This document shows, piece after piece, positions 269 to 30,143 of a stretch of 64,000 bases of DNA. The notes beneath the pieces are model-generated. The model was not told the DNA's origin and made no database searches. It saw only the letters and a list, made by a program, of their open reading frames with translations. The position numbers and the translations under genes are program-made. Origin of the DNA: Arctopsyche grandis (Eukaryota > Arthropoda > Insecta > Trichoptera > Hydropsychidae); contig NC_135361.1 of the NCBI RefSeq assembly GCF_051622035.1, positions 8,003,001-8,067,000 on the forward strand. The letters run 5' to 3'. The number at the start of each line of letters is the position of its first letter. Within the stretch, counting starts at the first letter, position 1.

Positions 269-2325
269 GCTGTTGCGCTTGTTATGCCTCGCATGGAAAC
301 TACAGCGGCTGATGCTCAAGCTCTTCATCCACATCAGCAGGTACTTTTCTTTTTTCAATTAACACGATATATATCACATATCTTTATGAAAAGTAAAATG
401 AATGCCACTTTGTTCCCATCGTTACTTTTACAGCAAGCATCCAGTTCGTCTAATAATAATTCCAGTTCGACGGTTACCACGTCACATGGACCGGTCAGCG
501 GCAACAGTGGACTGGTGAATAAGGGCGAATTGCATAGGGCTTTTAAAAGACCTCGGGTATTGTCGGCCCAACCGCAGAAGACTATTCTTAAACGACTGAA
601 GATCCAGGTATTCATTTGAATTTAAATTTTTGTTTATTTTGAAAACTCATTTTCACTTTGTGTACGTAGTAACAATAGATGAAGTTTTGTTGAAGTTTAG
701 TCTTATCCAAATTTTTTTATTTGTTTGTAAAGGGTTTCCAAAGAGTTACTGAGAACGACGCAGACTATCAGATGCCGACGTCTTCACAGAGAGATCAAGA
801 AGATGAGATGGTCGGTTTTGGGGATTCCGACGATGAAGAAAATTATCAGGTTTGTAATGTTCGGTACTGTTGTGTTTAATTGTGGTAAATGAATTAATAT
901 TGTATCGTTTTTTTTTTCGTTATAGGATCCTATATATGAAGTGGAGGATGAGGAGAATGATATCGACGATAAGGAAAGGCCGGCAACGGAAGCTAGAAGT
1001 GTTGCCGATTTAAATATACCGGAAGATCAAGAAGCTACTGGAAGTAATAATGAAGTCGATCTCGTCGACGATTCATCTCAAGTAATTTAATTTTTGCATA
1101 ATTTACATGTCGTTGTTGTAGTTTTGATTGTTGTTAAAATAATCTTGTTTGGGTTTGTATAGGAAGTGAGGAGTTCTCATCATGAAGATGTCGGTTCTAG
1201 AAGATGTGATGAAAGTCTCTCTGGAAATTTTCCGACTGTATCTACAATAGGAAATCCTATACAAGAACAACAGATCGAAACGATTTCTAGTGGAACAGGT
1301 TATTGTTTTGTTTAAAATTAAATTGAAACCTGTCAAAGTTTCATATTTGGCTCTCATTATCCTAATTACTCCTTCAATAAATCTTGTAATCTTAACCTAA
1401 AGATGTGTTTGATTATCCAAAATCGGTTTTTGTAGGAGTTACATCTGCAGCAACAGGTGGAACTTACGAAGAAGCTGATGATAGCATTGTACCTTCTACT
1501 CCAACGCTGTATATACCGGCGAGAAATGAGAGGTTAGTATATTATAATATATCAATTGCATCTATCTAACATATGTAGTCTTAAAATATGGTTATTTTTA
1601 GCGAAAGTAGTAATGCAGCTACTGGTGCCGTAGCTGACGATGCTCAAGCAGACGTTGCTCCACAACAGATGCCTCACGACCCTACATTACAAGGTAGTTA
1701 CATTCACTTCTTTTAATTCAAATATCTTATATTGTTTCTGCATGAAAAAATACTGTTTCAGGAACACCAGCTCTTTCGGCGAACATAGTTGTGACTCCAC
1801 AAAGCTCAGAAGCCGAAGTCGGCGGAAGTCTATCGAGTCGTAGCAATATAATCGATGACGAATCACCAACGGTCAGCTCGCAAAGTACGCCTTCGTCTTT
1901 CGTACCTCAGGTAATATTCAGCTCCCGGTGATCATATAAAAAGTGACGATGGATTAAAGGATGGTTTTAATGTAATATTCAGGTCGAAGAAGGCCGAGAA
2001 GCGGAGGCAAGTAGCACCGGAAGTAACAACACGGCGATAAGGGGCTCGTGGAGAGGATCTCGATCCATGCACCGCAGATCAATGTCTCCCCAAATTCATC
2101 ATTTAGCTCAACGTTCAACTGACCAGAGACCATCGCCGATTGTTTGGAACTCAGGTAAGTTTGTCGTTTGGTGTAATGGTTTTTATGAATACGTTAGTGG
2201 TGTTTAATTTGTCTTTTTTTTTTGTAGATATAAATATGAGGAGAGGATTTGCTCCGCAGAGAGGTTCGCCGAGAGGAGGCAGACATGTGATGAGACGACC
2301 GCCAAATTTTTATAAACGCTTTTGA
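269..2325 (+). CDS. Nucleoprotein TPR / Megator paralogue A, C-terminal part (5' end outside window)
   Basis: The last ten exons of a TPR (Megator) gene: 269-340, 434-607, 733-849, 926-1081, 1163-1298, 1436-1532, 1602-1693, 1762-1910, 1983-2154 and 2228-2325. All introns are GT-AG, phases are consistent, and the exons give 420 residues ending in TGA. TPR is the coiled-coil filament protein of the nuclear pore basket; this part is its disordered C-terminal tail. The match is to TPR-B on the opposite strand: exon 1 shares the PRMET block, exon 2 the SSSTVTTS block and KRP basic motif, exon 3 the TSSQ-DQ-D and SDDEEN block, exon 6 the YEE-DD-IVPSTPTLY block. The last two exons are rich in Ser, Arg and Gly (RGSWRGSR, RGSPRGGR), as expected for a TPR RG tail. 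AT-rich DNA with AATAAA-like signals follows near 2473. The coiled-coil part is not visible. Both genes look intact, so this is inferred to be a real gene rather than a pseudogene. Confidence 0.85.
655..690 (+). repeat. Short remnant of the dispersed ETS-motif repeat's flank
   Basis: The TPR-A intron contains GTACGTAGTAACAATAGATG followed by AAGTTTTG. The same string borders the 145-bp-period repeat at 43.9 kb and, inverted, at about 57.1 kb. It is probably a small relic of that element. Confidence 0.5.
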
Positions 2326-2952
2326 AGAAGATAAATTAGTTAAATTTCAAAATAGTCTGTGTGCATGTATTTGCCTCGGAAATGTTTACTATTATATGTA
2401 TGTAAAAAAACATAAGTTATATTGTGATATTCTTTTGTTTATTTTTTACTCGATTTCTTACGTTAAGTAGATTAAATAAATAATAACATTACAGTATTTT
2501 AATAATACAAGTAATATAATATAATAATTATTTACATTTTGAATTATAAATTTGAAATGATTGAGAAGAAAATAAAGAACGGTAAATTATTATAAGTACA
2601 TTTTTTATAAATATATTAAAAAATCCCATATAATGTTCAATATAGACAAAATTTGTGACGAAATTTCATCAGGGGAAAATAAAGCTTTGTCATTTATTTG
2701 TCTTTTCGTATAAAAAAATTTATTTGAAAGTTTTCATTTTTACGAGGTTTTATTAAATAACTAGTGTGTCAACTCTCGTATTAAACTTAATACACAACAG
2801 ACCCCAAATATGTATAGTGATAAATAAATATATAGAAACTTTATTGGTATCAATATTATTAAAAAAATACTGTGTTTTTGTTTTTAAAAAATAAGTAAAT
2901 ATACAAATGTGGAAAAAATGAAGAATCCGATTTTTAAAATGCAATGGCGGAT
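2326..2952. other. AT-rich intergenic segment between convergent genes
   Basis: Very AT-rich DNA with several AATAAA-type sites on both strands serves as the 3' flank of TPR-A (+) and of the CFAP100-like gene (-). I see no coding potential beyond short AT-rich ORFs and no recognisable repeat. Confidence 0.6.
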
Positions 2953-4323
2953 CTATGCAAATGTTCTTTGCGTCAATGTCTTCTTCAAATGCCTGCTAAG
3001 CGTTTCCAATCTCTTCAATTTTTTAGCCGCCTCTTGTGCAGTCTTCATAATAGTGATATCGTCTTTATAACATTGCCTCTGCGTAGATTTGGTCGACTCT
3101 AAGTTAATGTAGTCCAATTTGATCATATTAGCTTCGTATTCATTTTCCAAAGTCTCCATGAGTGCGATCGTCTCGAAACTCAAGTCCTTGAATATCAATT
3201 TATCGTAAATATCTTGGACGCAAATATCAAGCTTCAACACTTCTTCGGAGCAGAGCATGTTGCGTAAAATATCGTTTATTATCGCAATAATTTTCTGCTT
3301 CAACTCGCATACTCTAGCCTCCTCCCATTTTATGGTGGTCGTCATGTTTTCGATGAGCTCTCCGATGTCGTCGAATTCGTTATGAATATTATCGATAGAC
3401 GTGTCGACGTTGGATCTGACTTCTCCGCGACTCTTGGTCAACCTTTCAGCGTTTGTCCAGGATGTTAAGTTTTGCATTTCGATGCTTGCAAACAGCCTTT
3501 TCAATTCTGAAGGTTCTTTGAAGTACAACTGAGGCTCTTTGGACTCGCTCAGTTCCGTCTTCAGTGTTGATATCAAATTCACAAGACTCGATTCGGGTTG
3601 TTTTACGCTTTTATCATGGATTTGATTCGTTTTTTTAGCTTCGTCGTCTTGAAATGTGTCCGAAGAGTGTAAAGTCAACGGCGAAATCTGATACAGAAAC
3701 TTTTGATAAGTCGTTGCAAAGTTGAACTTCTCTCCGAGCACATAGATCTTGGATTTCAACGTCATCAGCTGAGTGTTTAAATTCCTGCACGAATTCTGCT
3801 TCTCCTCCAAATGCAAACCTTTCGTCATCGACTTTTTCAACATCTGCATGGAGCCGTCGTAATTTTCAGCTAGAAATTCTTCAAAGTTGTCTACGAACTT
3901 GTTATGGTGTCGACACAAAGTATTGAATATCTGCTTTTCCAATTTGAAGTTCTGTTTGATCTTCAGCAGCTCGTCGTTTACATACCCAGCTTTCAGTAGC
4001 AATACGGAACATTTCTTAGACTCGGCAGCGCAATCTTTCGCACTGGCTTTTTGCTTCGTCTGATCGAATTTGAGGATGGAATAGAAGTCGGGGTCAATAT
4101 CGAGGATGGTCACGAAGTCGGGCTGCGGAGCTGCATCAGATTTATAGCGGTCATCGTCCAAATGACGGCACTTGAAATACGGATGAATGTCGGGAAATTT
4201 CATAGACTCCAATATAATGTCTTGTTTTAATTTCTTAGTGAGCCGCGGCTTCCCCATCTTTTGCATTTTAGAAGACGAGACAACTTCATCTTGAAATTTG
4301 ACGGATAAATTGTTGCTTTTCAT
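2953..4323 (-). CDS. CFAP100/CCDC37-like DUF4200 coiled-coil axonemal protein
   Basis: A single-exon ORF of 456 residues. The reading frame opens upstream, but the first ATG is at 4323, before KSNNLSVKF. Residues about 115-235 match the DUF4200 coiled coil shared by CFAP100 (CCDC37), CCDC38, CCDC42 and CFAP73: a heptad-rich helix, a FVDNFEEFLAEN block, a KSKIYVLGEKF block and then YQKFLYQISP, the family's typical YK-FLYKLSP end. The C-terminal third is further predicted coiled coil. In other organisms CFAP100 anchors inner-arm dynein in axonemes, so expression in testis or ciliated sensory neurons is likely (inference). The gene is intronless while its neighbours are intron-rich, which may point to a retrocopy or simply to a compact gene. 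Its first 114 codons and upstream DNA are duplicated at 5772-6114. CFAP100 versus CCDC38 cannot be settled by eye. Confidence 0.65.
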   Translation of the reverse strand: MKSNNLSVKFQDEVVSSSKMQKMGKPRLTKKLKQDIILESMKFPDIHPYFKCRHLDDDRYKSDAAPQPDFVTILDIDPDFYSILKFDQTKQKASAKDCAAESKKCSVLLLKAGYVNDELLKIKQNFKLEKQIFNTLCRHHNKFVDNFEEFLAENYDGSMQMLKKSMTKGLHLEEKQNSCRNLNTQLMTLKSKIYVLGEKFNFATTYQKFLYQISPLTLHSSDTFQDDEAKKTNQIHDKSVKQPESSLVNLISTLKTELSESKEPQLYFKEPSELKRLFASIEMQNLTSWTNAERLTKSRGEVRSNVDTSIDNIHNEFDDIGELIENMTTTIKWEEARVCELKQKIIAIINDILRNMLCSEEVLKLDICVQDIYDKLIFKDLSFETIALMETLENEYEANMIKLDYINLESTKSTQRQCYKDDITIMKTAQEAAKKLKRLETLSRHLKKTLTQRTFA

Positions 4324-4493
4324 TTTTAAAATAAATGCTCCCAAAATCACAAAACGTTATTTACAAACTATAATATTGACACTTTAATTGCTTTATTGAT
4401 AAAATTTGTTACTAAGCAACATTGTTTTGTTTGAAAGAGTGTTACCAGTCGAATAAATACAGTTTGCGACAGAACGTATTTACGCGGGAATAC

Positions 4494-4732
4494 GGTTCGG
4501 TGATTACTAGTCAAATGTGAACCGGTCACAGGACAACCAGTCGCTTTAGATCGGTCACACGTGATCACCCGTCACATTAAAACTGGTCACACCCTTAAAT
4601 CGGTCAACCAGTTTTCTCGTGACCGATTTTAGGGTGTGACCAGTTTTAGTGTGACGGATGATCACGTGTGACCGATCTAGAACGACCGGTTGTCCTGTGA
4701 CTGGTTCACATATGACTAGTAGTCCGTTTACC
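4494..4732. mobile_element. Palindromic foldback MITE (GGTTCGGTG family), copy 1
   Basis: This 239-bp element is almost fully palindromic. One end reads GGTTCGGTGATTACTAGT and the other end, inverted, GGTAAACGGACTACTAGT. It is flanked by the 8-bp direct repeat GGGAATAC (4486-4493 and 4733-4740). The size, structure and 8-bp duplication suggest a hAT-like nonautonomous element. Confidence 0.85.
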
Positions 4733-4740
4733 GGGAATAC

Positions 4741-5340
4741 AACTCTCTCGCTGGGAGAGTTACTGGCGTACAGGGATACGTTTGTTCGTTCTTCCAGGTG
4801 CGTTCGTTCCGTGGTGGGGGATCAAAGGGAACAGAATGGCTAACCTGGGATGTATTATAGTTGTCGTGAAGTTCCTGATTAGAATCCTCGTCTCGTCTAT
4901 AGATGCAGCGCAGCTGTTGTGAAGCTGACTCTCGGTTCACCTGGTCTGTCTTCCAGCGGCTGATGCTTCTAGGGCTTTCCGGAGCGCTTGGCTACCACGG
5001 AAAGGTTAACCCGCACGGGGTTAGGAAGCTGCGTGGAGATACAGGTGACGAACTGTTGGAACTCAGGTAAGGGAGTGATGATACACTCAATTGTCCCGCG
5101 GTTATTTAACAAGATGGCTGATATCTGGGCACGTTCGCGATGGGAACGGCTCGCGAGAGATTAGAGAGGGGGGGGCATGCCTGTACCCGTGGACGACCGA
5201 AATGCGAATGAATGAATAGCTCTCGTCTCCTGCTTTTCGCGGTAAAAACTCTCGGCCTGAGTGTGGCCACCCGAAATAAGGACTAATGTTGCCACTGATG
5301 GGACGGCTGGGAGAACGTCACGTTACAAGTTGTTATTAGG
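4741..5340. other. GC-richer block upstream of the CFAP100-like gene
   Basis: About 600 bp of clearly higher GC content than the surroundings, with no convincing long ORF and no recognised motif. It could be a solo LTR or a promoter-associated island; the ends could not be resolved. An identical copy lies at 6532-7131 as part of the tandem duplication. Confidence 0.4.
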
Positions 5341-5614
5341 AAGGAATCGTAAAAACAACTAAACAATATTTGTATGAACCAATTTTATTCAATTATAGTA
5401 AATACACCTTAAATAAAGTTAAAAAAAAAGTTGGCTTGAAGAGTTTCTTTACAAATATATATATATATATACAATAGATTATTTCATAATTAACGAGTGA
5501 CTGCTTTTCGAATGTCATAGATATTGGAATCATGCCTTCAGAGAACTGAATAAAAATTGATTACACAGCCTCTGAATATATGTCAAACTATACGATATAC
5601 AAATTAAAAAAAAA

Positions 5615-5721
5615 CTAGTCTTGGGCGAAAGATGCTTCTAAGTTTCTAACGGCTTCGTTTCCTTCTCCGTTGTCGAAATTGTCCAGATCGGATTCGCCCC
5701 TATTCGAAGATGATAAATCAT
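5615..5721 (-). pseudogene. Orphan copy of the last TPR-B exon
   Basis: The 1791-bp duplication copied the terminal TPR-B exon (35 codons ending SFAQD-stop) with its CTTTCAG acceptor. Here it sits directly downstream of the truncated CFAP100-like copy instead of TPR-B. It could serve as a terminal exon only for a chimeric transcript. Confidence 0.7.
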
Positions 5722-6114
5722 CTGAAAGACATAAAAAAAATTCACAGCAACACGACAACTTAAATTGAACTCATACCCAGCTTTCAGTAGCAATACGGAA
5801 CATTTCTTAGACTCGGCAGCGCAATCTTTCGCACTGGCTTTTTGCTTCGTCTGATCGAATTTGAGGATGGAATAGAAGTCGGGGTCAATATCGAGGATGG
5901 TCACGAAGTCGGGCTGCGGAGCTGCATCAGATTTATAGCGGTCATCGTCCAAATGACGGCACTTGAAATACGGATGAATGTCGGGAAATTTCATAGACTC
6001 CAATATAATGTCTTGTTTTAATTTCTTAGTGAGCCGCGGCTTCCCCATCTTTTGCATTTTAGAAGACGAGACAACTTCATCTTGAAATTTGACGGATAAA
6101 TTGTTGCTTTTCAT
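5638..6114 (-). pseudogene. Chimeric truncated CFAP100-like ORF created by the duplication
   Basis: The first 123 or so codons match the CFAP100-like gene at 4323 exactly. At the duplication breakpoint (5771/5772) the ORF runs into the last TPR-B intron and then, out of frame, into the last TPR-B exon, stopping at 5638. The result is a 158-residue ORF that lacks the entire DUF4200 coiled coil. Its upstream 1.7 kb equals that of the intact gene, so it could be transcribed. It is probably nonfunctional, or else an assembly artefact. Confidence 0.8.
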
Positions 6115-6284
6115 TTTTAAAATAAATGCTCCCAAAATCACAAAACGTTATTTACAAACTATAATATTGACACTTTAATTGCTTTATTGATAAAATTTGT
6201 TACTAAGCAACATTGTTTTGTTTGAAAGAGTGTTACCAGTCGAATAAATACAGTTTGCGACAGAACGTATTTACGCGGGAATAC

Positions 6285-6523
6285 GGTTCGGTGATTACTA
6301 GTCAAATGTGAACCGGTCACAGGACAACCAGTCGCTTTAGATCGGTCACACGTGATCACCCGTCACATTAAAACTGGTCACACCCTTAAATCGGTCAACC
6401 AGTTTTCTCGTGACCGATTTTAGGGTGTGACCAGTTTTAGTGTGACGGATGATCACGTGTGACCGATCTAGAACGACCGGTTGTCCTGTGACTGGTTCAC
6501 ATATGACTAGTAGTCCGTTTACC
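6285..6523. mobile_element. Palindromic foldback MITE, copy 2 (within the duplicated unit)
   Basis: Identical to the element at 4494-4732 at an offset of 1791 bp, including the flanking GGGAATAC repeats. It was duplicated with its surroundings and is not an independent insertion. Confidence 0.9.
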
Positions 6524-7405
6524 GGGAATACAACTCTCTCGCTGGGAGAGTTACTGGCGTACAGGGATACGTTTGTTCGTTCTTCCAGGTGCGTTCGTTC
6601 CGTGGTGGGGGATCAAAGGGAACAGAATGGCTAACCTGGGATGTATTATAGTTGTCGTGAAGTTCCTGATTAGAATCCTCGTCTCGTCTATAGATGCAGC
6701 GCAGCTGTTGTGAAGCTGACTCTCGGTTCACCTGGTCTGTCTTCCAGCGGCTGATGCTTCTAGGGCTTTCCGGAGCGCTTGGCTACCACGGAAAGGTTAA
6801 CCCGCACGGGGTTAGGAAGCTGCGTGGAGATACAGGTGACGAACTGTTGGAACTCAGGTAAGGGAGTGATGATACACTCAATTGTCCCGCGGTTATTTAA
6901 CAAGATGGCTGATATCTGGGCACGTTCGCGATGGGAACGGCTCGCGAGAGATTAGAGAGGGGGGGGCATGCCTGTACCCGTGGACGACCGAAATGCGAAT
7001 GAATGAATAGCTCTCGTCTCCTGCTTTTCGCGGTAAAAACTCTCGGCCTGAGTGTGGCCACCCGAAATAAGGACTAATGTTGCCACTGATGGGACGGCTG
7101 GGAGAACGTCACGTTACAAGTTGTTATTAGGAAGGAATCGTAAAAACAACTAAACAATATTTGTATGAACCAATTTTATTCAATTATAGTAAATACACCT
7201 TAAATAAAGTTAAAAAAAAAGTTGGCTTGAAGAGTTTCTTTACAAATATATATATATATATACAATAGATTATTTCATAATTAACGAGTGACTGCTTTTC
7301 GAATGTCATAGATATTGGAATCATGCCTTCAGAGAACTGAATAAAAATTGATTACACAGCCTCTGAATATATGTCAAACTATACGATATACAAATTAAAA
7401 AAAAA

Positions 7406-10400
7406 CTAGTCTTGGGCGAAAGATGCTTCTAAGTTTCTAACGGCTTCGTTTCCTTCTCCGTTGTCGAAATTGTCCAGATCGGATTCGCCCCTATTCGAAG
7501 ATGATAAATCATCTGAAAGACATAAAAAAAATTCACAGCAACACGACAACTTAAATTGAACTCAAACCGTCGTAATCAGAATATAGAAAAAGGCATCAAG
7601 TATAAAATAAGCTAATCTCGGCTAAGTAGTGATTTTACTTCAATTGCATACTTCGACTTTGATGTGAAGACAATTGCGCGGTGAGATCGGCATGCGTGTT
7701 TTCCAATACACCTCCAGTACCCTCAGTGTTGCTCGAGCTGAATGAAAAGCGTCCCGTTTGAGCATTTTCAGCTGTCGGGGATCTTACAGCCTCGCCGAAA
7801 CTTCATATAAAACAAATAAAATCCACACTAGTATTACATATCATCGAACGAATTATAAATATTCATCTATGAACAAATAAATACCCGTCATTTCTAGTCG
7901 GCATGTAAAGAGTCGGAGTAGACGGTACAATACCGTCGTCTCCCTCTTCGTACGTATGTCCGGTTACGTTAGAACTGATCCCACTTCCTGCAGCACGTAG
8001 GACGAAAAAAGTATGGGATGAATTAGCTAATCATTTAAAATAATCATTAGTTGGATAAATGCGAATTTAAGCTGTAAATAAAAAAAATAAAAACATAATT
8101 AATATAGCATATTGCAATGATTACCTGGATTGTTGGAAATCGATTGAGGACGTTCAGCTGAAGTTTGCAATGAAGGAATTGTCGTTGATGTTTTTTGCAC
8201 CTCTTCGTTGTTTTCCTATGTAAAAAGATTTTAATAATATACAAATTGTATATGTTACAGTCCCGAGTGTTCACTCCGATTTGTTCATAAACATACTAGT
8301 TTGTTCATACACGAACTATTGGTTTTATTAGTTTAAACAGTCAAAAGCTATCTTCAAATCACTCGGCTCATCAGGTGTCGCATGAAACTGTCAAAACGCC
8401 AAGTATTTAAAAGGGAAATCTACATTACAACGTTGCTATGATTCCCATTTTCGTTAATATTAAAAACATTGGAACCTAGGGAAAGCATTAATACATAGAA
8501 AATGATTGACAATACTTAAACTTGTGTCTAATAGTATGAACAACTATGTAGTTCTTTTGTGTACACTAAAACTGGTCAGAATGGTTCATGTATGAACAAA
8601 CTAGTATGTTCATGAACGAACGAAATGTGACATGTCAAATTTGTTTCAAAATCACACCTGTGAAGTATCATCGATCAGCTCCACGTTGGAGATGTTTGAT
8701 TTTTTATTCGGCGAATCAGAACCTTCTTCATCGTCCATTTCCTCATCACTGTCTTTTTGATAGTCAACTTCTCGATCTGACTCTTCATTCTCGACACCCT
8801 CTTCTTCTTCTTCAGCATTCATCTCTTCCTCTTCGACGATTTCTTCATTCTCTCCATCCTTCTCTTCGTCGTTGACTGCCTCATTTTCTTCATCTTCAAC
8901 TTCGTCATCGTCATCTTCATCATCGTCATCTTCCTCGTCGTCATTTTCTTCCTCTTCAACTTCGTCCTCCTCTTCCACCTCCTCGTCATCATTTTCACTT
9001 TCGTCTTGTGCAATATACAAATTCGATTCCTGAAACGAACACAATTAGTCACTCTAATATTATTTCGACCAGTACAACACATACTTTAAATTAAAACACA
9101 CCTCATAATCATTTTCTTCATCCTCCGAATCGACTACGATTACGCTATCGTCTTGATCTTTTTGTGAAGACGTTGAAACTTGATATTCAGCCTCACAACT
9201 AGTCTTCTAAAAATGAAAAACACATTAAAACCACACACATACATACGTAAAGGAATATTCAGACGACACTTACTTGCACTTTAGGACGTTTGAGGTTATG
9301 CTTCTCGTCTGAGAGATCATCACGTGACCTCTTCTGAGCCGTATTACTATTACCGCCATCACTGTCTTGCCTTTCAGCCACGTTTGAATACGACGTAGTA
9401 ACCGTGGAACTCGAGCCGTTATTAGAAGTCGAAGACAACTGAAAAATAAATCACCGATTATATAGCATGCGAGGGTTTTAATGTGAGCGAAGCCTTTAAA
9501 CAATGATACCGACTTGTGTCACGGTCGCATCCACGACAGGCGTTTCCATCCGAGGGGAGACCAAAGCGACAGTCTGAAACAATGAATTTCAATACATATA
9601 AGAACATGGCATATACGTTACATAATCACCGATATAATACAATCGATAAAATATACCTGACTAGATTCCGGCGGAGTCGAATGCTGCTGAAGCGGTTGAT
9701 GCAACCGATTGGCAGTGGAAGAGCTGCTCGGAAGATATTCCGTCGCGTGAGAACTGCTCGGAGAGGACGAGATGACATCGCTGATTACGTTACCTACAAT
9801 TGATCCGTTCACAGTAAGACGGAACGAAATTCACAATGAACAATTTGAATTTGAATGAACCTGTCGTGTGCGGAGATTGGTGCGAGGTGACGGTAGTCGG
9901 CAGAACGGCGGCCGTCCTGACGCCCGATATGGAAGTCATCGGCTTGATGGAAGCCAGCGGAGTGTCTCCGCCCATACGTCTGTTTGCGACCGACGTAGGC
10001 GTACCTGAATATTATACACACGTGTAAATATTGTACATTCTAATATGAGGATATGATAATAATATGTGGTTCTTACCAGCCATCGGTTTGATGTTGGCTG
10101 TGGGAGGTTCGCTTCCGGATTTCTCCCCTTGGTTCGAGCTGGTCGAAGGTTTCGATATGAGAGTGTCGACTTGTTTTTGAATTTGTGCATTTTTCTGCAC
10201 GAGTGCTTCAATCTGCTTGTTCAACTGAGCCACCTCGTTCTGTTGCGTTTGAAGCAACTGGGTCTTCTCCTTTTCCAATTTGACTATTCTGCCGTCGTAC
10301 TGCGATTTCAAGGCCGTCAGTCTCACGTCGTGCTCGTCTTTGTTCTGCTCGAACGCTTCGACCTTGGCTTTGACTTCGTTCAGTTCTTTAGTGAGATTTT

Positions 10401-13400
10401 CCTTCGACTCGGTCAGAATGAAGATTTTGGTTTTGGCTTGTTTGAGAGTGAGCTTGGCTTTCTCTTCCAATTCTTCGTTTTTGGTTCGCAGCGTTGCGAT
10501 TTCTTTCTGCAGCGTGTCGTACTTCTCGAGCGACGACGCAACTTGCACTTCTAATTCGGCCGTTTTTTCAGTGTTCGCTCTTTCCAGGTCTACAATCTTC
10601 TGTTCGAGTTCTTTTTGAGCGTCGGATTGTCCGGTGGAGAGCTGAGCGCTCTCCGCGACTGTTGACTCCAACTTCTTTTTATCCTCTTCGACGGATTTGA
10701 ACAAAGTTTCGTATTGGTTTTTGTATTGCTTTGCAATTTTGCGTATTTGAGTTTCTTTATTCTTAGATTCGGCAGCTAGATTATTGGCTGCGGTTATGTT
10801 TTCGTTCAGCTTTGAAATTTCTTCAGTTCTATCTTTCAACGTCGATTTGATATCGTTCAATTCCGAAGATAGCTTTGCAATATCATGCCTCAAATCGGCA
10901 GTTTGTTTCTTATTTTCATCGCTAAGATTTCCCAATTGACTATTCAGCGCGTGGACTTGTTCTTCCAATCTGCTCTTTTCCAATTTAGACATGACGGCTT
11001 CCTCTCTTAACTTTTTAACATTTTCCTTTTCATTGGTAAGCATTTTAGCCAACGATTCTCGTTCATTTTGAAGCCGTTTCCAATCTTCCGGGTTAGTTTT
11101 GTTTGTTTTTTCTAATAAAGTAGACACCCTTGTCTTCCACCGACTGCATTCTGCCGAAATACAATTTTTTTCAACTATTGTACTATTGATTCTTTTATTA
11201 AGTGTGACATTATTGCTTTGCAAAAGAGCTACACTCTCTTCTAATTCCTTCAACTTTTGTGATAGACTCTTTATAGTATCGAGCGATTTATCCCTCTCAT
11301 CCCGCAGCAGAGAATTACTCACAGTCATCTCATTCAACGATTCGAACTTTTGTACGATTTCAGAATGCGTCAAAGATACGTTGAGCTGGGACTCATCTTT
11401 GTTTCCATCTTGTGATTTTTTCAAATCGTTCAAGTCGGACTGTGCGGACTCAAGCTCCGACTTGATCTTTAGATTCTCCTCCCTCATCGTGTCCAACTTT
11501 CGACTGTGCACATCCCTTTCTTTTCTCAGGTACCGAATGATTTGAAGCAGGTGTGATTTGTTATCGCTGTCCAGCACAGAAGCATTAGCGGCGCTTTCTC
11601 CCAAGGACGATTCGTTCAGATCCTCGGGCTGTTTCAACTTCTTGGACATGATGTATTGAGCGTTGAACACTTCAATTTGATCGTGGAGAAGAGTGTTTTG
11701 GTGTTTCATTTCCACGAGCGCCAAATCCGACTGTTCCTTTTCAGCGAGCAGGCGCTGAACATTTTCCTCCCAAGACTTGGCATTCTCGTTGAAACGCTCC
11801 TCCGATTGGACGTTCGAGCAAGTCAACTCTGTTATCTGCTGATTGAGTGATATTACTTGAGTCTGAAGTTGAGAGTTCTTTTGAGTAGATTCCGCTAAAG
11901 AAACGCCTAATGCTGAATTTTCTTCACTCAATACGTTAATCCTATCGGTAGTTTTGAGGCATTCGGCTTGAACTTCATCCAACGATGACGTCTTCTCGAA
12001 CAATTGCAAGGAAATATTTTTAATATTATCTTCAGCCTGAACCAGTTGAGCTTTCACTTCGTTGATCAATTCATCTTGATTTGTATTCTGCAGCGAAATT
12101 TCAGCTTCCAATTCGCCACATTTGTCTTTCAAATTTGCCATGAAGCATTCATACTCGGCTAGTTTCGTATCGGTGACCGCTTTATAGATATTGAATTGAT
12201 CGTTCAACTTCTTCAACTCTTTTTCGGCGTTCTCCGATATAGCGGTGATGTTTTTAATATGCTCTCTGCTATCTATCAGCTGTTGCTGTATCGAATCAAC
12301 TTCCAATTGCTTCTCGTTAAGTTTACTATTGAGAGTCTTCAGCTGAGCTCTCGACTGGCCATGTTCACCAGCCAAGTCTTTCAATTCATTCAGTTGTTGA
12401 GACTTGATTTCAAGCTCTTGCCTAGCATTATTCAATTCTAGCTTCATCTTTTCAACCTCAGATTTATCTCCTACGTTGCCATTCTCTGCTGAAAATCCGA
12501 CCTGTTTCTCCTCGAGCTTTCGCCTCAAGAGCGAACACTCTCTAGTGAACTCGTCGAGTTTGTTTTCGAATTTGGTCTTATCATTTGTCTGTTTCTTCTC
12601 GACAATGTCTTTGATGGTTTCGAAATTGGCGATCAACGTAGACTGGTGCCGCAGCTTTTCGTTGAGTTCGTCCTTTTCTTTCAACAGAACACCCTTCAGC
12701 TCTTTCAAATATTGAGACTCCTTTTGCAAGTTGCCGAGAATGGTTTCGTTCTGCAATACCTTATTTTCAGATATGGAAACCTTCTGCTGCAAATACTTAT
12801 TGTTCATTTCATACTCGGCCAATTTAGTACTACACTTTCCGCTCTTGTCTTCCAAAATAGCGTTCTTTTTCTTTTGAATGGCAATTTCGTTCTGAAGTGT
12901 TTTATTTTTTTCGCTATGCGCTTCTGCGGCACAATAGAACTTTTTATAAGTTTCGCTAACTTCAGCCAATTCCTTCTTCAGCCTATCGACTTGAGCCAAA
13001 AGTGACTTCTCCTTTGAATCAGTCAAGCTTTCGTATTTCTTATGATGTTCCTGTTCGAGATGCAATTGCTTCTTGACATCTTCCAACTGTTCCTCTAATA
13101 ATTTCATCTTCATTTGACTGGACGCACTCTCGTTGTGAACCTTAGACTGGTCTGCAGACTCCTTATTGGCGGTGTCTAGTTCGTCGTTCTCACCAGTATC
13201 AATGTTCATTGAACTGTCACGAAGTTTTTCATGGTTAAGCTTTTTATACATGTCTCGTTGCCGAATCAAACCCGATATAGTCTTCATTTGACGCTCTTTA
13301 CAATTACTCAACTCGGCTATTTTATCGTTGAGCGATTCCAATTTAACTTGCAACTCTCCACTGTCGAATTGATCTTTGATGGATTCGCACTCTTCCTGCT

Positions 13401-16400
13401 TTTCGGTCAAATCTCGGACGAGCCTCAAAAGTTTTTGATTATTCGCTTGTATTTCCTGAATGTCGCCAAACGTGACTAAATTCTTGGATATAATTTGAGA
13501 CGAACTGAATTCCGAAGCGCTCGTACTCGTAGAAATATCTTTATCTCCGTACAGATTCCCACCTCGGCTCACTTCGACTTCCTTCAACAAGAAACAAACC
13601 TGCCGACCCAAATCTACTAGTTCGTCTTTGAGTCGTTTATTCTCGCGTTCAAAATGATTGGACAACTTCATGGATTCCGCATAGTCGTCTTTTAATTGGT
13701 TATATTCTAACTCTACGGTTTCCAATTGTTGAGTAATGACCGAATTACTGTCTAAGATCTGTTCGTTTTGGGATATTTGGCGTTGGATGAACGGAGCTTT
13801 CTCTTCGAGGTCGGACATTATCATATTGAGGGCTTCTTTGAGCTGAGCATTCTCGTTGGTTTCCCTGGCGAGCTCGTCCGAAACGTGCATCAACTGAGCG
13901 TATATTTCTTGAAGAGATAAACCAGACTTGATGAACTCGCGCGCGACTGCCGCAGTCGGAGATATATCTTTGAGATTTGAATGGATTCGTTCAGTTTTGG
14001 TGCATTTCGAATCCTGCCTAGCGTTCTCTAGATCTTCCTTCAGCGAAGCGATCATGCTGTTTTTCTGCATGATTATCGCTTCATGGTCCATATCCATTTG
14101 AAGATTCTTTGATTCGAGTTCTCCGTACTTTTCGACAGCTTCGTTTAGTAACTTTTGTAGTTCGGTCACGCCGTTGACGAGTTCAGTGCATTTTGAATCG
14201 GAGTCGTCGCGCATGTTTTTATAAACGTCAGCGATTTTGGTCTTCGAATCGAGTTTCTTCTGCAGCTCGTCACAGAGCTTATTCTCGGCTTCGCGCTGTT
14301 CGTCTAATTTTCTATGGAGATCTTCAACTTCGGCAATGAGCGTCAACCGTTCTCTTCTCAAATGCGCAATGTCTTCGTCGGCTATCGACACCTCTTCGGT
14401 CTTTTGCGCCAACTGAGTTTCAAGTGAGCCCACTTTCCAAAATTGGTTTATCCTAAATGTTTCAAGTTCCAAGTTTTTCTTACTCAATTCGGTGCTCAAA
14501 TTTTGGTTCGCCTCGTTGAGGATGGTCTTCTCCCGTTCCATGAGCTCTTCCCGGTACTGTAACGATAGTTCTTTGGTTTTGAGTTCGTCATTTTTGGAAA
14601 TGATTTCGCATTTGGAATCGATGGCGTTTTTCAGTTGTGTGGAAGTTTTAGAAAGCGTTTCGTTGAGGTTCACGATTTCTGAGTTTAGTCGTGAGATCAT
14701 ATCCATTAAGGTGTTGCATTCGCGAACTGCACCGTCTCTCTGTTGTTGATACGCTTCGGAGTTCTCTCTGTCTTTTCTTTGACGCTCTTCCGAAACAGCC
14801 AATTTACATGACAATTCGTGCAATTGACTTTTCAAATTGTCTATGGATTCAATTGGGTCTGCTTCAACTGGGTCTGCTTCCACTGGGTCTGCTTCCACTT
14901 GACTCACTTCCATACTTTCGACTATTTCTTCTTGGACATCTTCTTGTAGAATATCTAATAATAAAAGTTTAAAAAAATCAAACACTTAATTAAAACAGTC
15001 GACTTTATGAAAATAATTAATTTAAAATCAAAGTCCATTTTTTTTAATTACTTCGGAGAATTATTTAATTTGTTTTAGTATCTTTCTTGAAGAGCTGATA
15101 TATTTAGAAAACAATCGATCAATTTGAATGCTATTTTTTATTTTTTGGTATTCGCATCTATAGAATTGTTTAAATTTTCTCCAAATAATAAATAAAATCA
15201 TTTTTTTATATCAGTGATCTGATTTTACTCCGAAAATATGATATGATTTTCATCCTATAAATTCGGGTTCATTTCAGAATTAGGATTTGCTTCTGGAAAG
15301 TTCAAATTCATCACGTAAATGTGAACAAACTTACTATTTTGGACCTGAAAATGTGATTTTATCCCAAAATACATATGTATGAATTTTCTGATCATATTTT
15401 TTATGTCAATATAATATAAGCAGTTTCAATATCTGCAACTCTTGAAGAAAAAATTAAGCCCATCATAGAAGAAAACCAAACACTGAAGAAGGAAGTAGGT
15501 ATGCTAAAAACTAGAGTCCGACACCTGGAAAAAGAAGCCAGGAAGAACAATATAATTCTCCACGAAATTCCAGAGTCCGAGGCAAACAAACAAGAACTTA
15601 TGGAAAAAGTTCTGGAACTCCTAAACCATATGAGTAAAAAGGTCCAGTTAAACGAATAGGACATATGGGAGCTAAACCAAGTGACTCGCATAGGAAAAAA
15701 TGAAGATAAAGCAAGACCAATCCTTATACAATTAACGCTTGCATGGAGAACAATATAAATATTCAAAAACAATAAGCAATTCTCGGCAGGAATATACGCT
15801 ACCAACGATTTCCCTAAAGATGTCCTAGAAAAAAGAAGGGAATTGAAAATCAAATTCGCCTACATCCATTACGATAAACTGATAGTTAAGGACATAGTAG
15901 AAAATAGAAAGAGATCGCCTTCAAAGTCGACAAAATCAACTCCCACATTGGGCAATAAGCAGCAAGCACCGAGCAAGCTACATAAAACAAACAGCTTCAC
16001 AGGTACAAAAGCCAGATCTAATTCAGTCAGCAGCAACGGAAGCAAATATTAGCAATTAAAAGACTTCAGCAACTGGAAAGGAAACAGTAAAAACAACAAA
16101 AACTACCACAAGTCTCAACCCGGCTGGTCACCGTGGGACTTCCGACCAACACCAAAAGCAAACAAACGTAATCTCTATACATAGCAACCTACAACACTTT
16201 GACTTTGAGAATGGATGAAAAACTCTTACAATTAGAAATTGCTCTAAGAAACATCAAATAGGACGTAATAAGACTTGGCGAGGTGAGAAGATTGGGCGAA
16301 CAAATAGAGGAACACGACAACTATATATTCTACTACAAAGAAGAAACGAAGAGGCTATATGGAGTAGGATTCTTAATAAAGAAATTTATTGTAGGTCTGG

Positions 16401-16932
16401 AGGAGGCCTATGTGTCATCAGAACACGCTGATGAATATCAGCAATAAAGGCTTTGAAATCTTGAAAATATAAGCAGAACATATCAAATAATGATAGCCAG
16501 TATAATAGAATGTGAAGTGAAATTGTATCGATGTTTACCTGGTGCTGCGGCAGTCGTCTGTTCGTCAATTTTCACGTTCAATTCTTCTGTAGGTACATCT
16601 TGTGGTAGGGCATCGACTTGTTCCGAAACTTGAGGTTGTTGCGCATCTTGGGCAGTTGGAACGTTTTGGGGACTTTGAGGTTGGTTTTCTTCGGGGTGAG
16701 GTCCTTCTTGGGGTGTCTCTGAGGGGTTTTCCTGAGGCTGTGGGGAATCGTGTGTTGGAATCGCCGCGGGAAGGGTTGGTGTGGGTGTGGGTGTGGGAGT
16801 GGATGTGGGAGAAGTGGCAGTGGGCAAATGGGGAGAATGGGGCGAAGGGGGCGTGGGGGGCGCGGCGGGCGAAGAGGGCTGGGAGGGCGGGGACTGGGGG
16901 GCGTTCACCTCCTTATTAGCCTCTTCGTCCAT
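7406..16932 (-). CDS. Nucleoprotein TPR / Megator paralogue B
   Basis: Twelve exons, 5' to 3': 16932-16539, 14954-10077, 10004-9861, 9793-9657, 9573-9514, 9438-9274, 9206-9102, 9029-8658, 8215-8125, 7987-7885, 7800-7652 and 7512-7406. Phases are consistent and the product is about 2234 residues, close to usual TPR length. TPR scaffolds the nuclear pore basket, acts in mRNA export surveillance and binds spindle checkpoint proteins. Residues 132-1757 come from one large exon and are almost continuous coiled coil. They include the conserved SPTAAVAREF motif (about 463), KAP-like AP-I-RQ and RENKRLKDE blocks and an SKPSTSS tail. The first 131 residues are a Pro/Ser/Thr/Gln-rich segment unlike the coiled-coil start of known TPRs. 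The C-terminal region has an IKPM block, a basic KRP patch and a 124-codon, strongly acidic exon, and ends SFAQD without the RG-rich tail seen in TPR-A. The start at 16932 is the first ATG in frame. The last exon choice is supported by phase. Confidence 0.92.
8281..8620. mobile_element. TIR element (MITE) in TPR-B intron 8
   Basis: Terminal inverted repeats of about 40 bp at 8281-8320 and 8581-8620 share the core ACATACTAGTTTGTTCATAC. The interior is noncoding and AT-rich. The element nearly fills the intron between exons 8 and 9. No clear target duplication could be assigned. Confidence 0.75.
15410..16480 (+). mobile_element. Decayed non-LTR retrotransposon (ORF1 plus endonuclease start) in TPR-B intron 1
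   Basis: On the + strand, antisense to TPR-B, there is a degenerate ORF1: a coiled coil (LEEKIKPIIEENQTLKKEV), an RKNNIILHEIPES motif and GIYATNDFPKDVLEKRREL, broken by stops near 15657 and 15757. A basic Ser/Lys tail to 16050 follows, then the start of an APE-type endonuclease (LGEVRRLGEQIEE) near 16280. The layout fits an RTE- or CR1-like LINE. No reverse transcriptase remains. Confidence 0.75.
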
Positions 16933-27962: not shown

Positions 27963-30143
27963 TTAGACAAATTTCACACTTGTATGGCTTTCCCCTGTGT
28001 GACATCTCAAATGTAACACAAGTTGACTTTTTCGAATAAATGATTTTAAACAAATTTCACACTTGTAAGGCTTTTCACCAGTGTGAGATCTTAAATGCAT
28101 CACAAGACTATTTTTATGTTCATATGATTTTAAACAAATGTCACATTTGTATGCTTTTATCCCAGTATGCAATTTTTCATGTGACACGAGGTGAGATTTT
28201 CGAGAAAATGATTTTAAACAAATTTCACACTTATATTTTTTTTCCCCAGTATGTAATTTTTGATGTGTCTTGAGGGTTGATTTTCGAGAAAATGATTTTA
28301 AACAAATTTCACACTTGGGTGTCTTTTCCCCTGTGTGACATCTCAAATGTGACACAAGTGCAGTTTTGTTAGTAAATGATTTTAAACAAATATCACACTT
28401 GTAAGGCTTTTCACCCGTGTGAGATTTCAAATGTTTGACAAGTAAATATTTGTGAATAAATGATTTTAGACAAATTTCACATTTGTGTAGTTTTATCCCA
28501 GTATGTATTTTTTTATGTCTCTTGAGGTTACAATTTTGAGTAAATGATTCCAGACAAATTTCACACTTGTAAGGCTTTTCCCATGTGTGACATATCAAAT
28601 GTAACTCAAGTTGACTTTTTTGAATAAATGATTTTAAGCAAATTTCACATTTGTGTAGATTTATCCCAGTATGTAATTTTTTATGTGTCTTGAGGTTAGT
28701 TTTTTGAGTAAATGATTTTAGACAAATTTCACACTCGTGTGGCTTTTCCCCTGTGTGACATCTCAAATGTAACACAAGTTGAAATTTTTCAATAAAAGAT
28801 TTTAAACAAATATCACACTTGTAAGGCTTTTCACCCGTGTGAGATCTTAAATGTCTTACAAGTGTATTTCTTCGAATAAATGATTTTAAACAAATTTCAC
28901 ATTTGTGTAGTTTTATCCCAGCATGTATTTTTTTATGTGTCTCAAGGGTAGAATTTTGAGTAAATGTTTTTTGACAAATTTCACACTTGTAAGGCTTTTC
29001 ACCCATGTGAGATCTTAAATGTATCAGAAGTCCATCTTTTTGAAAAAATGATTTTACACAAATGTGACATTTGTGTAGTTTTATCCCAGTATGTAATTTT
29101 TTATGTCTCTCGAGGGTAGGTTTTTGAGTATATGATTTTAGACAAATTTCACACTTGTATGGCTTTTCCCCTGTGTGACATATCAAATGTATCGCAAATG
29201 CATCTTTATACATAAATGATTTTAAACAAATTTCACACTTGTAAGGCTTTTCACCCGTGTGAGATCTTAAATGTGTGACAAGTGTATTTCTTCGCATAAA
29301 TGATTTTAAACAAATTTCACATTTGTGTAGTTTTATCCCAGCATGTATTTTTTTATGTGTCCCAAGGGTAGAATTTTGAGTAAATGTTTTTTGACAAATT
29401 TCACACTTGTAAAGCTTTTCACCCGTGTGAGATTTCAAATGTTTGAAAAGTACATATTTTTGAATAAATGATTTTAGACAAATTTCACATTTGTGTGGTT
29501 TTATCCCAGTATGTAATTTTTTATGTCTCTCGAGGGTATTTCTTTGAGTAAATGATTTTAGACAAATTTCACACTTGTATGGCTTTTCCCCTGTGTGACG
29601 TCTCAAATGTATCACAAGTGCATTTTTTAGAATAAATGATTTTAAACAAATTTCACACTTGTAAGGCTTTTCACCCGTGTGAGATCTTAAATGTGTGACG
29701 AGTGTATTTCTTCGAATAAATGATTTTAAACAAATTTCACATTTGTGTAGTTTTATCCCAGCATGTATTTTTTTATGTGTCCCAAGGGTAGAATTTTGAG
29801 TAAATGTTTTTTGACAAATTTCACACTTGTAAGGCTTTTCACCCGTGTGAGATTTCAAATGTTTGACAAGTGCATCTTTTTGAATAAATGATTTTACACA
29901 AATGTCACATTTGTGTAGATTTATCCCAGTATGTAATTTTTTATGTCTCTCGAGGTTACATTTTTGAGAAAATGATTTTAAACGAATTTCACGCTTGTAA
30001 GGCTTTTGACTCGTATGAGTTCTTAAATGTCTGACAAGTGTATTTTTTCGAATAAATGATTTTAAACAAATATCACATTTGAACAGCTTCTCTCCAGTAT
30101 GTGATGTTTTGTGTGACACAAGTTCGGATTTATTGGGAAATGG
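27963..30143 (-). CDS. C2H2 zinc-finger array (25 fingers), separated from its ZAD exons by a TAG
   Basis: An open frame of 25 tandem 28-residue C2H2 fingers plus a broken leading finger, of the type KCEICLKSFxxKxxLxxHxxxHTGEK. It continues in the same frame as the ZAD exon directly upstream, from which one TAG (30144-30146) separates it; an AAG lysine is expected there by comparison with other fingers. Linkers alternate between TGEKP and the unusual H(A/T)GIKL. Finger 2 has both zinc-binding cysteines replaced by arginine (KREIR). Fingers 4-8, 9-13 and 14-18 form a five-finger repeat of 420 bp. The family is DNA-binding; ZAD-linked members are often architectural or transcription factors. 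The frame ends through a one-base deletion. Expression would need readthrough, an alternative splice or an internal start; otherwise it is a young pseudogene. Confidence 0.85.
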   Translation of the reverse strand, partial: PFPNKSELVSHKTSHTGEKLFKCDICLKSFIRKNTLVRHLRTHTSQKPYKREIRLKSFSQKCNLERHKKLHTGINLHKCDICVKSFIQKDALVKHLKSHTGEKPYKCEICQKTFTQNSTLGTHKKIHAGIKLHKCEICLKSFIRRNTLVTHLRSHTGEKPYKCEICLKSFILKNALVIHLRRHTGEKPYKCEICLKSFTQRNTLERHKKLHTGIKPHKCEICLKSFIQKYVLFKHLKSHTGEKLYKCEICQKTFTQNSTLGTHKKIHAGIKLHKCEICLKSFMRRNTLVTHLRSHTGEKPYKCEICLKSFMYKDAFAIHLICHTGEKPYKCEICLKSYTQKPTLERHKKLHTGIKLHKCHICVKSFFQKDGLLIHLRSHMGEKPYKCEICQKTFTQNSTLETHKKIHAGIKLHKCEICLKSFIRRNTLVRHLRSHTGEKPYKCDICLKSFIEKFQLVLHLRCHTGEKPHECEICLKSFTQKTNLKTHKKLHTGINLHKCEICLKSFIQKSQLELHLICHTWEKPYKCEICLESFTQNCNLKRHKKIHTGIKLHKCEICLKSFIHKYLLVKHLKSHTGEKPYKCDICLKSFTNKTALVSHLRCHTGEKTPKCEICLKSFSRKSTLKTHQKLHTGEKKYKCEICLKSFSRKSHLVSHEKLHTGIKAYKCDICLKSYEHKNSLVMHLRSHTGEKPYKCEICLKSFIRKSQLVLHLRCHTGESHTSVKFV

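Follow-up and report, generated by a model that had tools for sequence, protein, structure and literature searches.

Three diverged TPR/Megator paralogues in the caddisfly Arctopsyche grandis and a possible division of nuclear-basket work among them

The window analyzed here is a 64,000-nucleotide stretch of the Arctopsyche grandis genome (C7:8003001-8067000), taken from a 475.7-Mb assembly of 189 contigs that was also searched as a whole; positions given without a contig are those of the window. Two genes for TPR/Megator proteins face each other within 17 kb of it: the last ten exons of the 15-exon TPR-A on the plus strand (269-2325) and the complete TPR-B on the minus strand (16932-7406). 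A sequence-only reading of the window had claimed this convergent arrangement of a C-terminal ten-exon portion and a complete second gene, and our gene models agree with it. The exon borders of both genes were chosen by hand for GT/AG splice sites and frame, and all introns in the models are GT/AG. The TPR-A exons in the window (269-340, 434-607, 733-849, 926-1081, 1163-1298, 1436-1532, 1602-1693, 1762-1910, 1983-2154, and 2228-2325) read as a single open frame, 420 codons followed by a stop, and the exon at 1436-1532 bears TYEEADDSIVPSTPTLYIPARNE. These last 420 residues match no Pfam family and no PDB sequence at E ≤ 1.

TPR-A extends 8.3 kb upstream of the window, where exons 1 to 5 are found on the same strand (C7:7994735-8002366). 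They include the giant coiled-coil exon 2 (C7:7995650-8000488), located by a profile search with PF25785, and this rules out TPR-A as a mere C-terminal fragment; the upstream coiled-coil exons, whose absence would have counted against the earlier reading, are present. The full TPR-A model has 15 exons (C7:7994735-8005325) encoding 2211 amino acids with a single stop at the end, exon 1 being a prediction based solely on an ATG, a splice donor, and a matching phase. Directly before exon 2, a short open frame (C7:7995297-7995518) repeats approximately 20 residues of that exon (DKFQCLEILESQLADMKKEL) and appears from its sequence to be a small local duplication.

TPR-B comprises 12 exons on the minus strand (16932-16539, 14954-10077, 10004-9861, 9793-9657, 9573-9514, 9438-9274, 9206-9102, 9029-8658, 8215-8125, 7987-7885, 7800-7652, and 7512-7406) and encodes 2234 amino acids with no internal stops and one terminal stop; frame and splice sites are the sole basis for its first and last exons, the first being placed at an ATG with a donor in the matching phase. 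Exon 2 (14954-10077) is a single coiled-coil exon of 4878 bp with matches to PF25785 (TPR; E = 3.7e-27), PF07926, and PF25481. The exon at 7987-7885 bears TYEEGDDGIVPSTPTLYMPTRND, the block most alike between TPR-A and TPR-B. In the gene model, TPR-B starts with a 131-residue proline-rich segment, its acidic exon is expanded, and its end is truncated. The first 597 residues gave no matches to PDB sequences at E ≤ 0.01. Within intron 1, on the plus strand, broken retroelement-like frames are seen at 15420-16470, which we presume to resemble an RTE-type LINE.

The interval between TPR-A and TPR-B contains an exact tandem duplication of 1793 bp (3981-5773 and 5772-7564), with 0 mismatches and 2 bp shared at the break. 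It repeats the last exon of TPR-B and the 5' end of a DUF4200-type gene, a single-exon frame of 467 codons on the minus strand (2953-4356; 30.1 bits, cut-off 29.7). A search of the assembly with the 1793-bp unit returned two full copies; its interior includes a palindromic repeat (query 514-752) that is ~94-96% alike elsewhere in the assembly, and a multicopy repeat of ~600 bp, for which 40 of 1975 candidates were scored. This duplication is a separate local event and not the origin of the A/B pair. Elsewhere in the window, a zinc-finger frame of 726 codons (27963-30143, minus strand) encodes ~20 C2H2 fingers (21 zf-C2H2 stretches) in a long tandem repeat.

The sequence-only reading had counted two TPR genes; TPR-A and TPR-B are real, but the count was too low, for the genome searches give three. 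The third gene, TPR-C, is complete, with 13 exons on the minus strand of the same contig (C7:12810558-12802118), 4.8 Mb from the window genes, and encodes 2172 amino acids with one terminal stop. A PF25785 profile search of the assembly gave three matches, corresponding to A, B, and C (5 of 5 candidates scored), with the TPR-C match at C7:12808212-12808517, and PF07926 identified the same three genes (23 of 23 scored). When exon 2 of TPR-B (29 of 33 candidates scored) or of TPR-C (29 of 100 scored) was used as the protein query against the assembly, only A, B, and C were found. A fourth copy, very diverged or badly broken, is unlikely. In a bacterial and archaeal collection no relatives were confirmed. 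Exon 1 is unrelated in sequence among the three genes; in TPR-C it contains VLTPREASNLSANVTRKLDSHLENM, which we assume to be akin to the start of vertebrate TPR. A cuticle-protein-like frame is present close to TPR-C. On a different, 42.7-Mb contig, a mitochondrial-type COX1 (C1:36084329-36085669) is open under the invertebrate mitochondrial code and represents either mitochondrial DNA copied into the nucleus or a misjoin. A tRNA scan returned 0 genes.

The relationship between the window genes was assessed exon by exon. The TPR-A tail matches TPR-B with a blastp E value of 2e-14, and in an exon-by-exon matrix five of the eight same-rank pairs (A exons 1, 2, 3, 6, and 7) scored better than all 300 shuffles, pair 4 was weak (p = 0.037), and pairs 5 and 8 showed no likeness (p = 0.75 and 1). 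Of the 72 off-rank pairs, 4 had p below 0.05. Intron phases could be compared at seven sites and are identical at every one (0,0,0,0,1,2,1). The one-to-one exon alignment claimed earlier is therefore upheld in structure, whereas for some pairs it is not borne out by sequence likeness. The common intron phases also rule out a retrocopy origin. Exon 2 is 4839, 4878, and 4833 bp long in A, B, and C, is entered in phase 1 in each, and holds 1610-1625 complete codons per gene, in proteins of 2172-2234 amino acids. The layout, an exon 2 of ~1600 codons followed by a tail, with an acidic exon in TPR-B, is TPR-like; the coiled-coil nature of the three proteins was read from family matches and sequence rather than predicted by a program.

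Aligned amino acid identity is 39.8% (805/2021) for A-B, 36.0% (738/2049) for A-C, and 32.8% (654/1995) for B-C. Among the three pairs, synonymous differences reach 0.79-0.80, beyond correction, against nonsynonymous differences of 0.40-0.45. Raw counts of identity at four-fold sites are 78/220 (0.35, with 0.26 expected by composition) for A-B, 56/191 (0.29, with 0.27 expected) for A-C, and 39/157 (0.25, with 0.26 expected) for B-C, and synonymous sites are saturated or nearly so. Nonsynonymous change far below synonymous change indicates amino acid constraint, and since the frames are intact over ~6.5 kb apiece, all three genes have apparently been kept by selection. Three intact frames of 2172-2234 codons rule out pseudogenes. 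A, B, and C are almost certainly old paralogues that have all been kept. The earlier view that TPR-A and TPR-B go back to an old duplication of which neither copy was lost, and do not reflect an assembly echo, is borne out by their 39.8% identity, near-saturated synonymous sites, intact frames, and common phases.

The most likely branching order, only moderately supported, is that C separated first from an A/B ancestor, and that A and B then arose as inverted neighbors. Parts of the alignment conflict with grouping A and B to the exclusion of C. Columns 1350-1499 bring B and C together (46%, versus 39-40% for the pairs with A), as do two short stretches (107 and 73 bp) of 81% DNA likeness, and in PF07926 the A-C pair is the most similar (39% versus 23-26%). 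Recent gene conversion between A and B in columns 1650-1799, where they are 70% identical, is ruled out by four-fold sites, at which A-B identity across columns 1650-1949 (24/66) is not above the gene-wide 78/220.

The copies differ in which conserved pieces they retain. In exon 2, PF25785 scores 83.3, 95.3, and 38.8 bits in A, B, and C, all above the cut-off of 27, whereas PF07926 scores 75.1, 29.1, and 84.9 bits, so that A and C are above the cut-off of 36 and B is below it. PF25481 reaches 23.0 bits in B and 26.9 in C (cut-off 27), and A has no match at E ≤ 0.1. The assembly-wide profile searches agree in rank order (PF25785, 89, 102, and 44 bits; PF07926, 82, 35, and 90 bits for A, B, and C), the 35 bits of TPR-B rising to 39.2 when neighboring pieces are added. 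Copy-specific changes in B and C run in opposite ways in the two domains, with 8 in B and 20 in C in PF25785, and 32 in B and 16 in C in PF07926 (Fisher p = 0.0019, which is optimistic because both domains were chosen after the scores had been seen). Across the whole alignment, copy-specific changes number 205 in A, 263 in B, and 325 in C. B and C differ at a nominal p < 0.05 in 4 of 17 alignment windows: columns 1650-1799 (B 11, C 39; nominal p = 9e-5), 600-749 (B 10, C 31; nominal p = 0.0015), 1800-1949 (B 6, C 19; nominal p = 0.015), and, in the opposite direction, 150-299 (B 25, C 12; nominal p = 0.047).

Losses in the tails also differ. In TPR-C the PPTANIKPM motif is degenerate and there is no TPLASIKPM exon; the TPR-A tail is without the GFGEAV block; and TPR-B has no counterpart of TPR-A exon 5, and its last exons with the basic end are absent from the model. 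In the models, the introns at the sites of the missing C exon, A block, and B exon span 69-85 bp, too short to hide them. The missing end of TPR-B could in principle be located further downstream. In each of the three copies, a different conserved piece is gone or eroded.

We consider partial subfunctionalization of nuclear-basket scaffolds to be the best explanation of A, B, and C, with a probability of roughly 60%, and give about even odds that it is the reason three copies were kept. The genes would encode TPR (Megator/Mlp) paralogues acting as nuclear-basket scaffold proteins, each still a coiled-coil strut, with the ancestral work partly split among them. A and B would retain the better-conserved PF25785 region, which we take to be the pore-anchoring part of TPR, and A and C would retain PF07926 and the C-terminal tail, with B bringing its proline-rich start, enlarged acidic exon, and short end. 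The basket might then vary with the mix of copies at a pore, with the tissue, or with the stage of the cell cycle, as a comparison with yeast Mlp1/Mlp2 and Alm1/Nup211 would suggest. More tentatively, and somewhat against the odds, three diverged scaffolds with reciprocally lost modules may give the pores a minimum of two and conceivably three basket types, or the genes may have divided pore work from spindle-matrix work. The sequence-only reading had proposed two types of pore or a germline-specific role, both of which are conjectural. Counting against subfunctionalization, NUP50 has a single match in the assembly, so this basket partner was not duplicated alongside TPR. Nup153 and zf-C3HC models gave no matches, but as their controls were silent as well, these results are uninformative. 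The Nup98-type PF04096 has two matches (C45:25348-25740 and C3:26243341-26243538), one of them short and with an internal stop, and a second or broken Nup98-type copy is possible.

The unrelated first exons, the proline-rich start, enlarged acidic exon, and truncated end of TPR-B, and the excess of copy-specific change in TPR-C could instead reflect neofunctionalization, in which a single copy remains the housekeeping basket TPR and two have taken on new tissue-restricted work, for example, in the germline or the spindle matrix; Drosophila Megator reportedly has a role in testis stem-cell division, which would fit. Every copy is, however, short of some conserved piece (A lacks the PF25481 match and GFGEAV, B is weak in PF07926, and C is weak in PF25785), leaving no obvious unchanged housekeeping copy, and we regard neofunctionalization as unlikely. 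A need for more TPR, with drift in the coiled-coil sequence tolerated, is less probable still: coiled coils bear much change, and identities among A, B, and C are only 25-30% across columns 750-1049, but region-wise change in opposite directions and differing missing pieces exceed uniform drift, and the copies are old, as the saturated synonymous sites imply. The zero-mismatch 1793-bp duplication might itself be an assembly error and could raise suspicion that the genes are an assembly echo or haplotig; with 60-67% of aligned residues differing between the copies, and with A, B, and C at separate sites on one 33.7-Mb contig, their identity of 33-40% rules this out for practical purposes.

TPR serves as a basket strut and in mRNA export control, chromatin organization, and the spindle checkpoint, jobs that are hard to separate with one gene. 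If partial subfunctionalization is true, the three natural copies, each with a different piece missing or eroded, would amount to a ready-made dissection of TPR, part by part and job by job, allowing these jobs to be mapped to protein parts in an animal, and differences in basket composition among pores would become directly testable.

To our knowledge, TPR is usually present in one copy in animals; a spider paper is said to use the phrase "nucleoprotein TPR-like". Among the matches listed in a literature search of partial coverage, no title or abstract opening described a duplicated TPR in an animal. A review describes Tpr, Nup50, and Nup153, all proteins of the basket, as highly conserved within Metazoa (PMC8421043). 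Human Tpr has a coiled coil of ~1600 residues followed by an acidic non-coiled end, and its pore localization, via Nup153, needs two coiled-coil residues, L458 and M489 (PMC3258255). A, B, and C resemble animal TPR/Megator in having a ~1600-residue coiled coil and then an acidic non-coiled end, and in exceeding the PF25785 cut-off in all three copies and that of PF07926 in A and C. They are unlike it in that one genome carries three diverged copies, and the conserved piece that is lost or eroded differs from copy to copy. The fungal Mlp1/Mlp2 pair is of separate origin. Budding yeast Mlp1 and Mlp2 are paralogous TPR homologues that form basket struts, current models placing Mlp/Tpr coiled coils in the struts and their ends in the distal density (PMC11416316); both sets are TPR paralogues, a fungal pair in one case and three far-diverged copies in the other. 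The two fission yeast TPR orthologues, Alm1 and Nup211, provide a fungal case in which the basket differs from pore to pore, approximately half of the pores being without an Alm1 basket (PMC8967992).
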